Below, piece by piece: positions 32,333-48,700 of a stretch of 64,000 nucleotides of DNA; positions within the stretch are counted from its first letter, which is position 1, and each line of letters opens with the position of its first letter. The DNA lies in NCBI RefSeq assembly GCF_964204645.1, contig NC_134027.1, forward strand, positions 2,716,485 to 2,780,484, in the 5' to 3' direction. Origin of the DNA: Tubulanus polymorphus. Lineage: Eukaryota; Nemertea; Palaeonemertea; Tubulaniformes; Tubulanidae. A program made the position numbers and the translations under genes. Under the pieces are notes generated by a model that worked only from the letters and a program-made list of their open reading frames with translations, had not been told where the DNA came from and did not search any database.

Positions 32333-35300
32333 CTAGACACTGCAAGCGGTAGATGGAATTCGCAATACCTTATCCTTCTTTTTGTTTTTGCGTTCCTTCC
32401 ACGCGAACTCGGCTAAAGCGACCACTATCGATACCGTCGTTCCCGCGAATAGAACGACAAACACTCCGGCAACGTTCAGCATTCCCAGTTCATCTGCATC
32501 TTTCTCAGATTCATCTGTACACGCTCCTGCTCCTCCTTTCTCCCTCCACCATTGATGATACAAAGTTGTTATCTGTTCATTCTCTTGTAGTTTCAAAATG
32601 CTGTCCGATAGAAGATCTCTGTACGGCGAACCTTCAAATGGAATTAACAAATCGCATATCAATGTCGAATGAATCACAACTTGTGTCTGTTCAAATAATC
32701 GATTACCTCTTCGCAAACCGATGCCGTAACCTTTGGAATCAAGTCTCGATCCTATTTGTACGAGGTCGCAGTTTCTTTCCCGAAAATATTCATTAGTCGT
32801 AGATTCTATTAGAAACGCGTAACCGCCCTTTTTTACGCGATTGACGCCCTCTAACGTCGAGCCTACCATGACGCTTTCCGACCGGTTGAATTGCCGCATG
32901 AAATGCCACATTCTTTCGTAGATCGGGTTTTTAGAATTCTGTAAAAGAGTTCATTCGAAAATTAGGATTGCGGAAGATCCTCTTTATGGTGGCTGATAAG
33001 GGCCATAGCGTAAAATTCCTGGTATGTAAATGAGGGCGCCAGAACGCCAGAACGCCAAAACGAAAAAAAAACGTCCAATTTTCTCTAAAAGTTCGTTTTG
33101 GCGCGCCAAAACAAAGAAATTTCCGTTTTGGCGCCCCCGCCAAAACGAACTTTCATTTTGGCGCCCCCGCCAAAACGAACTTTCGTTTTGGCGCCCCCGC
33201 CAAAACAACGAAAAACGTCCAATTTTCTCTAAAAGTTCGTTTTGGCGCGCCAAAACAAAGAAAATTCCGTTTTGGCGCCCCCGCCAAAACGAACTTTCAT
33301 TTTGGCGCCCCCGCCAAAACGAACTTTCGTTTTGGCGCCCCCGCCAAAACAACGAAAAACGTCCAATTTTCTCTAAAAGTTCGTTTTGGCGCGCCAAAAC
33401 AAAGAAAATTCCGTTTTGGCGCCCCCGCCAAAACGAACTTTCATTTTGGCGCCCCCGCCAAAACGAACTTTCGTTTTGGCGCCCCCGCCAAAACAACGAA
33501 AAACGTCCAATTTTCTCTAAAAGTTCGTTTTGGCGCGCCAAAACGGAGAATATTCCGTTTTGGCGCCCCCGCCAAAACGAACTTTCATTTTGGCGCCCCC
33601 GCCAAAACGAACTTTGGTTTTGGCGCCCCCGCCAAAACAACGAAAAACGTCCAATTTTCTCTGAAAGTTCGTTTTGGCGCGCCAAAACAACGAATATTCC
33701 GTTTTGGCGCCCCCGCCAAAACGAACTTTCGTTTTGGCGCCCCCGCCAATACGAACTTTAAACCACGTAAAATAATTCTATATATACGTAAAATATTTTC
33801 ATTTATGCAAATTTATGCAAATTACACACAAGATCAACGCGCCAATTTGAAAAATAATTTTACAGTGGTTGAATGCTTGTTTTGGCGGGGGCGCCAAAAC
33901 GGAAATAACCGCGCCAAAACGAACTTTTCTTTGTTTTGGCGCGCCAAAACGAACTTTCAGAGAAATTTCGACGTTTTTCGTTGTTTTGGCGGGGGCGCCA
34001 AAACGAAAGTTCGTTTTGGCGGGGGCGCCAAAATGAAAGTTCGTTTTGGCGGGGGCGCCAAAACGGAATTTTCTTTGTTTTGGCGCGCCAAAACGAACTT
34101 TTAGAGAAAATTGGACGTTTTTCGTTGTTTTGGCGGGGGCGCCAAAACGAAAGTTCGTTTTGGCGGGGGCGCCAAAATGAAAGTTCGTTTTGGCGGGGGC
34201 GCCAAAACGGAAATTTCTTTGTTTTGGCGCGCCAAAACGAACTTTTAGAGAAAATTGGACGTTTTTTTTCGTTTTGGCGTTCTGGCGTTCTGGCGCCCTC
34301 ATTTACATACCAGGAATTTTACGCTATGGCCCTTATCAGCCACCATACCTCTTAGAGTCATTCGTCTAAAAATATATACCTTAAAGAATGTATGAGAAGA
34401 ACCACCCCAGATCGAGCCGTATCTTATCTCGGTCTGTTTCGATAAGTCTTCGGCGCTATTTATTGGAGAACTAAGCTTTTCAATCGTGAGGAAAGCTGCC
34501 AAATTAGCAGTATAAGACGAGATCATAATCAGTGTAAAAAACCACCAGAATCCACTGGCTACACGAGTTGAGTTCGCTATTGGAGCTATCTCTGAACCTA
34601 CAATACATGATATCACACATAGATATATCATTCCACTAATGCCATAGAATTTTCAATTTGAAATGTTACAGACCTTGCTGCATAAGTGACCCTATCGTAA
34701 ACCAGAAACTGTTGCGAAACGTGAACTGATTTTCTAGTTCATCGGGATTCTGGTCACAGGGATGAGGATTCTGCCATTCGTACGGTGTAAATCGACCAAT
34801 TACAAATATAATCAGACTAACAATAACGTATGAGACCAACATCAGCGCCCAGACATCGTTTGAAAAAGGCGAAAGGAAAGAAAACAAACTGGGATCCTTT
34901 TTCTCCGGTTTTTTTCCGAGGATCGTAATTCCGAGATTCATGAACGGTTTCGTAAAGTCGATTACTTGCTCTCTGTCATAGCTAATGGATAGTGGTGCAA
35001 CCGCTAGATCAGCTTTCTGTAAACATACAGTACAAAACACAATCTTCTCATGTTTATTTTCTTGATAGGTTCTTGATTCAGTTCTGTGCAGTAGTCATTA
35101 GCGTGAACTGAAATCTACGGTACGCCGAAATATAGAATATCATACCTGATCCATTAACTCACGAACCATACCATTCCAGCCGTAATTCCTGACCGGGGCT
35201 CCGTATCTTCCATCAGCTACCAGTTTTATCGTGTAGTTGAAATGTAAATCCGCAGCCATTAATTTGAGTAAATCTACGCAGAATCCTTCGAATCGGTCGT

Positions 35301-39142: not shown

Positions 39143-42100
39143 TTATTCGGTGCCAGTTTTATCGCAATCGGTATCCTCTGGTTCAGCAGGTCGTGTCGAG
39201 GATCCATTACAACGAGCTGCTATTTTCAGTTCGTTTAAAACGCTTTCACCAAGTGGCAACTGAAAAAAAATATTGACTATCAAACAATTTTTTTCTCTCC
39301 ATTAAAATGACGTGATCGTCGAAATGTATTCGTGATAATAGAATATCACTCAAGTTCAGATGGTGAGATGCAAATTCCAACAAAGAAAATATCACATTTC
39401 ATATCAAATTACGTTACGATGAAATATCACCAAACTTCTCAACTGTTAAATAAAATGCGAACAAATATCTTTTGATTTCTGTGCTTACCTTGTTTCCCTT
39501 TTTACTTCTACGATGGTGCCAGACGAATTCGAACAAAGCGATAACTATCGCTACTAAAGTTCCGATGAATAAAACGAAGAAGACACCTGCTACATTTAGT
39601 ATACCGAGTTCATTGGCATCTGTTTCTGTTTGTTCATCGCACATTCCAGCGCCTTCACTCTCCCGCCACCATTTCTCATATAATTCCGCTAATCGTTCCT
39701 GCTCTTGCAGCTTCAGTATACTGTCTGATATGACATCTCTATACGGAGAACCTGTTTATAGTGGAAACTCTTAATAGCATAACATTTAATCATGTCGTTA
39801 GTGTCATTAGAAAAAAATAATGCAGACAATGCAGGCGTCCTTATTTGGGATATATTTTGGTCGTCTCAGTTAAAATTTATTATCCAGGGTCCAGTTCCAC
39901 AGTTCCGAGTTAAGATTTGACTCAGAGTTTACTCATTGAAAATGAACTAACTTTAACTCAGTGTTAACCCTAACTCACAACTGTGGAACTGGGTCCAGGT
40001 TCATTCCGAGTTGAAAGAAACCTAAAAAATCATTTATTACTTAAAAAAGATTCATTCCGAGTTAGCTTACGAAAGTTTTGGAGCATTTGTTAACTTGATT
40101 TGAGCAAATTAGTTTACAAGTATCAGTGTCTTTACCTCGTCGAGTTCCTACCCCGTACCCCTTAGAATCGAGTCTGGAACCGATTTGAAATAGGTCGCAA
40201 TTTCTTTCGGTAAAATATTCATTTGTAGTCGATTCGAGCAGAAAGGCGTAACCTCCTTTTTTCACTCGGTCAACGCCCTCTTGCGTCGAATCAACCATCA
40301 CACTTTGCTCTCGTTTGAAGTGTTTCATGAAGTGCCACATTCGTGCATAGATCGGATTCTTCGAACTCGTTAAATACAGACACTTTAAAACCCACCATCT
40401 TAAAAATCAAAACATTAAGCTTAGGCCCGAAGCATTGGAGACAGGATACCCGAAAAAACAGGTGTGAAGATCCACCCCAGATGGTGCCGTATTTTATATC
40501 TGTTTGCTTCGATAAGTCTTCGGCGTCATTGATCGGGGAACTAAGCTTATCGATCGTGAGGAAAGCTGCCAAATTAGCAGTGTAAGACGAGATCATAATC
40601 AGTGTAAAAAACCACCAGAATCCACTTGCTACACGAGTTGAGTTCGCTATTGGAGCTATCTCTGAACCTACAATACATGATATCACACATACATATTTCA
40701 TTTCACTGGTCCATAGTATTTTCAATTTGAAATGTTACAGACCTTGTTGCATAAGTGACCCTATCGTAAACCAGAAACTGTTGCGAAACGTGAATTGATT
40801 TTCTAGTTCATCGGGATTCTGGTCACAGGGGTGAGGATTCTGCCATTCGTACGGTGTAAATCGACCAATTACAAACGTTACGAGGCTGATGACGATATAG
40901 GCAAACAGCATGAGCGCCCAGACACCGTCAGAAAATGGCGACAAAAACGAAAATAATTTCGGGTCCGGCTTCGCCGGTTTTTTACCGAGAATCGTTATTC
41001 CTAGATTCATATAAGGTTTTGTGAAGTCGATCACTTGTTCTCGGTCGTAACTGATTGTAAGTGGCGCGACCGCTAAATCAGCTTTCTGTAAAACAATGCC
41101 ACATTTTTCTAATCATATATATTCTTATATCTCATATCCTATTATTCTGGTCATTTACAGAAAGTCCGATGCTTTTCTCACGAAAACGTATATGAGTATA
41201 CACAAACCTGGTCCATAAGTTCTCTAACCATTCCATTCCAACCGTTTTTAACGGGAGCGCCATATTTCCCATCTGCTACCAGACGAATGGTATAATTGAA
41301 TCCAATATCTTCGGCAATCATTCTTATCATGTCGATACAGAAACCTTCAAATCTATCGTTTCCCGTGTAGTTAGCTTCACCGATATTCGGCTTCCTCAAC
41401 ATTACAAAAGGAGCTTCCTGAATATCAGAAATAGAGACACTACAAAATATTTAATTCCTGTAAAATCTTCAAAACTTGCATGAAGGAATAATAATAATAA
41501 CCATAATAGTTGTAACGACGAGGGCTTGTGGTTCTTTCTGTAACGGCATCTTTTTCAGTTTGTTCCCGATAACAGCTAGTCCATTATTCGGGTCCCAGTA
41601 TCCAAGCTGCAGAAGATTTCAACACATCATCAACGACTTTTGGATAAACAGTATTCGGTTGGAAAAAAATGGACTGAAGACATGATATATTCGTTTTAAT
41701 GATATGGGTAGAAATTCGTACAGAAAATTAGCTCTTAATTTACGCACCACGTCATTATTCGCATCAACCATCCTCAGTGTAAACATGATTCGCCTGCCCA
41801 GGTCATCGACCTCGATTTGACCGGTCAAACCATTCGAAATCTATCAGAAATATTGTTTATAGAATAATTACATATTATTCACGTGATGTCTCGTATAGGG
41901 TGATTAATAATCGCGTCAGTTGCTACAAATCGTTTACGACGCAGTGGAGGATATTCACGAGTCATTTGATCGGGTCATGTCAAAACGGATAACAACTTAC
42001 ATTTTCATTGATAATTCTTTGCAGCAGAGAATTCCCTCGTGGCCAATGGGTTGGTGAACTGCATGATTGTCCAGTTACTGTAACAAGCGATTGGTTTTCA

Positions 42101-45701: not shown

Positions 45702-48700
45702 CGTGTTAGATAATTTCTATGTAGCTCACCTATAGTTTTGAGAATTAGAAATCACTATGTGAACTGTATTTGTCTCCATTAGAATCAATGTATGCAGATT
45801 CATGGTGAAAAAAATTTACGGCCTCACAATTAACTAATTCATTGCGATTTTATACTTATCATAATAATTACTGTTCTTTTATACGTTTGCAAGAAAATAC
45901 ACAATCATTCTCACTTTCAATCGTTGCACAAGCGAGGTCATCAAATCAGGCGACATTTAGACCTAATAATTGATAACCAGGACAAAGCGCTACGTACCTC
46001 GAAAATCTTTTGATTTTAGTCTATTTTTAGCTATTTCGTTACTGTCAGATTCGTTTTTTTTTGTAAAATCTGAACAGTTTGTAGGGATATTTTGACGTTT
46101 AGTATGTTATTTATTGTATGTTCTGAGTACATTTTCCGGAATTCTCTTGTTAAGAAACAATTGTTAATATCCGTTACCATAACGAAGTATGTATATATTA
46201 CGAATGATACGTCGATTCGAATCGTTCGGGATATTTTTGAACAACGTGTACTCAATAACTCGATTATTGCTTTGTTTTTGTACTTTTGATCCCATACTGA
46301 CATCTCACCTACATTGCATCTATTTTTATGCTAAATTCACTTGAAACTTACGTGAAAAATGACATAAAGTTTCTTGAACTATCGATATAAGCAATATATG
46401 AGTGTCTTACCTAAAACTGAAATAGAATGTGAAATTTTTTAGTTTAATTTGATTGATATAGCAATAATGAAATTTGTGACATACGAGAAAATATCAACTT
46501 TCGAATGATCTTTATAATATAATATATGGATACAAGATTCAGTAGATTCATACAAGATTAAGATTAGCAGTTTGAAATATAAAAATAAGTTGAATTAAGT
46601 TAAATAGATGAGAAAAACGACCATTACAATCTATGGAAAAAATATTAACCAATTATTTTCCTTTTTTCTTACCACGAACTTAGTCACTTTGATTAACAAA
46701 GATGATTCCAGCTAAAATCTATCTGAGATTAAAAGTGCTTAAAAACTGTTTCAGTTTTTTAGAACTAACCTTCAACGCTGAAAGGTATAAAAATCCTACA
46801 AACAGGTTGATGCGTTGACGTGAAATGGAGGTGGGTTTACAGTTTGCAGCGATGTTTCTTCAGAAGTATACACTTCAATAAGTGCAAGTGATTCCCTCGT
46901 ATGTATTTTGCCATACGTGCAAATTATTGGAAAACGGCAAATTTCCTATTTTCTGCAAAATATCTATTACTGAAGGCAGTAATAGATAATTTAATCTGAA
47001 TTGCATATGAAGTAAACCTAATTTCATAATGAATAGAACATTAACATGAAGTGTAACTGGAAACGTAAATTCTCGTTTTTATGAACTTCTACTAATTGAA
47101 ATACCACAGAGGCTGGTTGAATCAGACTGTCTTTCGCTTGTCATCACATATCATCAAAAACCATTTATCGCTGCTTTGCAGCTACAATCATTTAATAATT
47201 TGTTAGATTAAAGACTGTCACCACTGAACGATTTACAGAACTTTAATGTGCATCTGTCTTGACAAGATTTTGTAGATTATGCAGTCTACTAACTGATTAA
47301 GTTATCTAGTAACTCTTATCTAACTGGTTTGATATAAATTTCAGCATTCCCTGACCAGTACCAGTTAGTATACACCATTATTACACCACATTTAAGTTAG
47401 AATAAACTTAAGTTGAGTCTAAATTCGTTGTTAGTGTCGTTTCATTGGTGAGTTTTGACCATGGCCGTATCATTTTTGAAGCAGGTGATTATGTAAGCTT
47501 ACAGATGAAGTTAAAGACGACTGTCAGATGTTTTCTTTTCTAGGTATTCAGAGTCGCAGATTTTGTGTCGCAAAACGTTACCAGATGGAAATATTCTAAT
47601 CAATTGTTCAGGTCTCATGTGGATTCATCATTTCGATTTATTTCTCATTTACGTAAGTGGATACCGATTGATTGTCACGGCGATCTATCATAACCTCGAT
47701 TGTTACACGTATGATCCGTCACATATGTATAATTCCTTTTTCAACTGAATGCAAATTGGAAAATTCTACCAACATTAGTTTTGTGAGAACCATTTAACGA
47801 ATATGTATGTGTAAATATAATGGAAGATGATGCATGCAAGGTCTTTAAAGAATACTAGAAGAAAATGCGAAATGAGCAATGCTAATAGTTTCAAGATGAC
47901 TCGCTAGTCGAGCGATTGAATAAGACGTTAGTTTAGAGGTGGCGATCATCACACACGCGTCCGTTACGTGTTGTACGGTAACAACACTAGAACTTGAAAG
48001 CTATCAACTCAAACAGTTCTCAACTTGACCACAAAAAGTAGATGGATATACTTGATCAGTACGAAAAGTAAAACTACGAACAGGTGGAAGAGAAACATTT
48101 TTTTTAAACGGTGACTTGAATGAGGTAAGATGGGTTTTGCATCCATTATCTAACCTGTATATACTTAATTCTTAAAGTGAATTTTTGCGAAGTGTTATGT
48201 ATCTATATATTAAGCCGATGCATGGATATTGATATTAAATGTTGTAAGACGACTGGCATCAACTATTAACAGCTTTCATTGACTTAACAGTTGGCCGACT
48301 AAACATGTGTTACAGAGCATCGATCCTGGAATATTTTCACCATTCATAAATCAGTTTTTGCTCTCGCATATCTCATATCTCATATCTCATATCTCATATC
48401 TCATAACTCATATCGATAATATTGATAGATCATATTTTTTGATAAACCAGAGATTATCACAAACAAGATTGACTGATAAGAATGGAAAATTGTTTTTCGC
48501 CAGGGACCTTTCTAGACATCCATCTAGCTGGTTTTGACTGCCCAAAATACTTGGAATCCTACTTAAACAATTAATAGTACTTATGTCGAAAACGGCGGAA
48601 GACGAGTTCTTTTTAACGGATTGGTTTAACTCGTTCATTGGGGGTATTAAGTCATTCGTTATATTTTACATGATAAACAAAATAAAATCGCTTGCTCCAC

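Follow-up and report, generated by a model that had tools for sequence, protein, structure and literature searches.

An intron of a glutamate receptor gene in the nemertean Tubulanus polymorphus is occupied by inverted arrays of short palindromes, many of which match the E2F consensus TTTSSCGC. The locus raises the question of what kind of element carries such arrays and what the arrays might do. We analyzed the surrounding window of 64,000 nucleotides (contig NC_134027.1, forward strand, positions 2,716,485 to 2,780,484) together with related sequences throughout the genome. Positions below refer to the window unless a locus is named.

A foldback element with arrayed ends in a receptor intron

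The element is a 1,363-bp foldback structure spanning 32985-34347. Its termini, TATGGTGG...CCACCATA, are reverse complements of each other, with TA as the outermost bases of the inverted repeat. Over 86 bp at each end (left, plus orientation, 32985-33070, reading TATGGTGGCTGATAAGGGCCATAGCG...; right, minus orientation, 34262-34347) the arms are 100% complementary and start with TATGGTGGCTGATAAGGGCCAT. Complementarity between the arms reaches 99% over 359 bp. Tandem Repeats Finder identified 4.9 copies of a 144-bp unit in the left array (33053-33759, plus orientation, 97% matches) and 2.6 copies in the right array (33911-34279, minus orientation, inverted relative to the left one, 96%). Between them lies an AT-rich centre (33760-33870). 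The layout described in an earlier note on this DNA, inverted 144-bp arrays around an AT-rich centre with inverted ends, is thus borne out by both repeat detection and arm complementarity. That note had also taken TA to be the flanking boundary of the element, which proved wrong: TA is the tip of the inverted repeat itself, and what was duplicated at the target site is the 6-bp sequence CCTCTT, found at 32979-32984 and again at 34348-34353.

Units are built from a TTTTGGCGCGCCAAAA palindrome and TTTTGGCGCCCCCGCCAAAA blocks set at 30-bp steps. The composition of one palindrome plus three blocks, proposed earlier for every unit, is too strict as worded, since the innermost units are partial and three blocks are not present in all. 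Exact counts in the element are eight for TTTTGGCGCGCCAAAA, 13 for TTTTGGCGCCCCCGCCAAAA and seven for the reverse complement of TTTTGGCGCCCCCGCCAAAA, that is, 28 paired palindromes or blocks. The consensus TTTSSCGC matches 38 times within the 1,363 bp, against six times in the 62.6 kb of window outside the element, a concentration far beyond chance. Elsewhere in the window, a seven-copy CATATCT tandem repeat lies at 48367-48414.

The host intron (32939-34379, minus strand) measures 1,441 bp and runs from a GT end at 34379 to an AG end at 32939; its flanking minus-strand exons have GluK2 as their best PDB match (E 3e-105), identifying a kainate-type ionotropic glutamate receptor gene. The element fills nearly all of the intron, leaving ~40 bp to the acceptor and 26 bp to the donor with the duplications counted out, and subtraction of the element and one duplication leaves 72 bp. 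Kainate-type receptor genes are arranged in tandem here, both on the minus strand (34299-35040 and 40065-41112). The paralogue (~40.0-41.1 kb) has an interruption of roughly 80 bp, free of the element, at the matching place, and the receptor intron therefore most likely predates the insertion.

Genome-wide copies, unoccupied sites and array variation

A 22-bp terminus with two free bases NN (TATGGTGGCTGATNNGGGCCAT) has 657 exact matches in the genome (334 + 323), while its reversed control has none. Using a 78-bp end query, 41 places out of 453 candidates were scored; 14 paired copies were extracted at first and further copies were added later. Thirteen copies of the same family (family A), including the one in the window and comprising array-bearing as well as full-length copies, carry perfect 6-bp duplications. 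For two copies, the joined flanks match uninterrupted genomic repeats across the junction, base for base and with a single instance of the 6 bp, so that these unoccupied sites confirm, at the level of sequence comparison, the insertions to the exact base. The AT-rich centre is common to most other short copies, with 98-99% identity where it is full, and the two full-length elements compared lack it. Copies differ in how many palindrome-bearing units an arm contains (0 to 10), and units of one element resemble each other slightly more (95.5%) than units of different elements do (94.0%). Perfect 6-bp duplications also flank short copies of 222-513 bp that contain only 3-19 half-sites of the array motif.

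The searches suggested in the earlier note, for genomic copies of terminus and unit, for empty sites and for array-length variation, thus all gave positive results: hundreds of copies share the ends, and the structure is not confined to a single site. Taken with the GT-AG ends of the intron, the shared termini, the target duplications and the unoccupied sites, this upholds the description of an intronic, mobile foldback element. As many independent copies have the same ends, centre and duplications, an assembly artefact is unlikely, the exact unit numbers per copy resting on the assembly rather than on reads.

Some copies have a more complex arrangement. At L022, L070 and L074, elements are nested in or abut copies of the same or a sister family, and a terminal repeat is found directly beside or inside the element. 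Two further loci, G000:C1:21399020-21400271 and G000:C2:7665975-7666527, combine one AAG-type with one TTC-type terminus and are possibly hybrids, or else unrelated halves of neighbouring copies.

Full-length relatives encode an integrase-core transposase

Five full-length relatives of 8,831-9,888 bp (two on C1 and one each on C7, C8 and C10) share these ends and arrays, and each is flanked by a perfect 6-bp duplication. Their plus strand contains a multi-exon transposase gene, of which the spliced frame amounts to 386 codons, open in at least three copies and with an in-frame stop in L011. This frame matches the Pfam family rva_4 (integrase core) with an E-value of 7.7e-40, and a shorter piece of it matched too. 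The surroundings of the DDE triad read HLDGYD, RMDAGTEN and NQRIERWW, with 36 residues, counted by hand, between the second D and the E. Upstream of the core, residues 26-47 and 75-116 give helix-turn-helix matches that are weak and below the Pfam cut-offs. Of the splice junctions, the one between exons 2 and 3 is the least certain, using a weak donor, and a first exon with a start codon was not found in the full-length copies. The 386 codons read, which exclude that exon, include no HHCC zinc domain, and no match to a THAP domain was obtained in this frame. A second transposase lineage, ~48% identical, is present at G000:C4:17377092, C3:15406623, C7:11941979 and C1:15690759, its catalytic region being a single uninterrupted frame.

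As published, the signature of the IS3EU superfamily combines TA..TA termini with target duplications that are usually 6 bp long (PMC10045372). Because the present elements have TA..TA ends and 6-bp target duplications and their full-length relatives encode an IS3-like DDE transposase of the integrase-core type, the window element is very probably a non-autonomous, foldback-type copy of an IS3EU/GingerRoot DNA transposon with internally repetitive ends. Two features set it apart from IS3EU/GingerRoot elements as described: its terminal repeats are long inverted arrays of 144-154-bp units, and its full-length relatives carry a HECT-domain gene in addition to the transposase. In open papers, a comparison outside which Repbase entries lie, we found no description of inverted arrays or of a HECT partner in this superfamily; the accessible portions of the literature on IS3EU in other animals deal with copy numbers or repeat similarity and mention neither. 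The TA at both ends would also suit an element of the Tc1/mariner type, which targets TA. We give this reading practically no weight, as TA lies within the inverted repeat, the transposase has an IS3-like integrase core, and the duplications, as well as the unoccupied sites, are of 6 bp where a Tc1/mariner element would leave a 2-bp TA duplication.

Sister families share a half-site frame and differ in E2F matches

Related elements were reached through transposase exons that share 66-73% identity. Families B (C8, C2) and C (C6) have TATGGTGGCTGATnnGGGCC ends in common, and three of their copies are flanked by the 6-bp duplications GTTCAG, GATTCG and GGATTG. One family-B right end reads CTACCATA; otherwise, all complete copies examined have the TATGGTGG...CCACCATA termini. 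Family D, whose ends were not found, is placed by transposase and motif similarity only. Units are 154 bp long in families B and C, compared with 144 bp in family A, and shorter in D.

All four families share the core TTTTnnCG, mostly in the form CGTTTTnnCGC, at a density of 37-61 per kb against a window background of 1.2 per kb. This core persists while the surrounding sequence and the unit length vary. The two central bases are GG in family A, TG in B, TG, GG or AG in C, and mostly AT in D. In family A, half-sites are paired head to head at distances of 8 or 12 bp, the pairs being repeated at ~30-bp steps, and pairs in B and C are arranged much as in A, with a spacing of 11-12 bp being common. 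Since the central bases vary while density, pairing and plan persist, what appears conserved among the families, judged by sequence comparison, is the frame of the half-site together with the way half-sites pair and arrays are laid out; the match to E2F is not.

This bears directly on the E2F reading raised in the earlier note. As considered here, that reading has the arrays attract host E2F/DP and thereby time the element's transcription or replication to S phase, or act as an intronic enhancer of the receptor gene. The dense consensus matches on which it was founded are real as matches, with 38 TTTSSCGC in 1.36 kb in addition to palindromes of the TTTGGCGCGCCAAA type. Yet the two bases that define an E2F site are replaced in sister families of like architecture (TTTTTGCGC, TTTTAGCGC, TTTTATCGC): counts of TTTSSCGC in families A, B, C and D are 38, 0, 32 and 0, and among TTTnnCGC-like sites the consensus is found in 0/119 in B, 32/103 in C and 0/8 in D. 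Two of the three relatives thus have no consensus match at all, at an undiminished density of TTTTnnCG. Arrays are also retained in short copies devoid of genes, which speaks against a role confined to transcription of the element's own genes. A literature search for amplification of E2F sites by transposons brought up papers on plant MITEs. We therefore regard E2F recruitment as very improbable; the consensus match is more likely an incidental by-product of the family-A variant of the motif than a docking site for E2F.

Arrays as putative transposase-binding sites

The reading we prefer, and consider somewhat more probable than its negation, takes the arrays as putative cooperative binding sites of the element's transposase. 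It is suggested by the density of TTTTnnCG in four families with variable nn and by the inverted pairing of half-sites, and it has a precedent in Galileo, whose transposase binds multiple sites in tandem-repeat terminal inverted repeats. Transposase supplied by full-length copies would bind paired CGTTTTnnCGC half-sites cooperatively through its N-terminal helix-turn-helix region and would act on the TATGGTGGCTGA... tip for catalysis. Each array would mark and synapse both ends, whereby a gene-less copy could compete for the enzyme, and unequal exchange between units would lengthen and shorten the arrays. Copies with 3-19 half-sites and perfect duplications count against a strict requirement for arrays, unless the arrays shrank after insertion. 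Because such copies, 222-513 bp in length, were evidently inserted cleanly, the arrays may be better seen as transposition enhancers than as essential ends.

Two other readings deserve consideration. The arrays could be neutral, satellite-like expansions within the terminal repeats, kept by unequal exchange and conversion and having no binding function. Free variation between 0 and 10 palindrome-bearing units per arm, the clean duplications of copies with few sites and the slightly higher similarity of units within elements are all in line with this. The retention of dense TTTTnnCG, inverted pairs and like spacing in families whose transposases are only 66-73% identical is, however, unexpected for neutral repeats, and we hold neutrality to be rather unlikely. 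Alternatively, the insert might work mainly via RNA, as a long intronic hairpin that is edited or diced and so alters receptor expression or silences the transposon family. The transcribed strand is predicted to fold end to end (-1083 kcal/mol) and the element takes up almost the entire intron, making a source of hairpin RNA physically plausible. The same architecture recurs at many unrelated sites, and any local effect would thus be a consequence of the structure, not its cause; as the main explanation, an RNA role seems improbable.

In shape, the element stands beside known foldback systems. In Galileo, footprinting shows repeated transposase-binding sites in foldback-like ends, which its authors propose to supply specificity, and the transposase is a THAP protein of the P superfamily (PMC3688188). 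The present elements resemble Galileo and the Foldback (FB) elements of Drosophila in their long, internally repetitive inverted ends with variable tandem repeat number and in their short, foldback-like copies without genes. Unlike Galileo, they pair an IS3-like integrase-core transposase with 6-bp duplications. Membership of the Galileo/Foldback group (P superfamily) was rejected: the repetitive inverted ends are present and a THAP transposase was not found. By analogy, the element would work like Galileo/Foldback while standing outside that group. Foldback elements are also described from root-knot nematodes (Mutator/Foldback Tm1, PMC3169594) and from Drosophila virilis (Tetris, PMC4079207), a likeness drawn from the accessible descriptions and not from sequence. 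The IS3EU lineage would join a short list of transposon groups that built foldback arrays independently, which supports a general reason for such arrays. The main interest of the system lies in its co-varying half-sites and in the linked HECT gene, and families differing at two central bases of a half-site that they otherwise share make a natural test case for the co-evolution of enzyme and site.

A linked HECT-domain gene

Why would a cut-and-paste transposon carry a ubiquitin-ligase-like protein? The minus strand of the full-length relatives contains a 629-aa open reading frame (L011:4885-6771 and matching loci), in which a match to Pfam HECT (8e-9), scoring above the gathering threshold, is limited to the C-terminal part. 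By eye, its motif ARTCAQILELP resembles the region of the HECT catalytic cysteine. No PDB sequence matched at an E-value of 0.001, and a literature search for HECT genes in DNA transposons returned nothing relevant. Five loci have this reading frame at 100% identity and a sixth has it nearly so, and two full-length copies are 99.5% identical over 7.2 kb, which suggests that the transposon system was active recently.

Of 35 HECT loci, 23 have a transposase match no more than 16 kb away, compared with 0.006 expected per locus. The pairing therefore appears stable across diverged relatives, suggesting that HECT is a long-standing second gene of this transposon lineage. A more far-reaching reading, which we consider less likely than not, is an IS3EU lineage in which family-specific arrays of palindromic half-sites co-diverge with the transposase, and which also has a stably linked, HECT-type ubiquitin-ligase-like partner gene. 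If this holds, it would be a two-gene transposon, one that assembles large nucleoprotein complexes at its termini and, while transposing, modifies proteins of the host or the transposase. At a separate locus, G000:C12:6502727-6553210, a related full element occurs as three similar copies spaced ~23 kb from each other, an arrangement that resembles a segmental tandem duplication.
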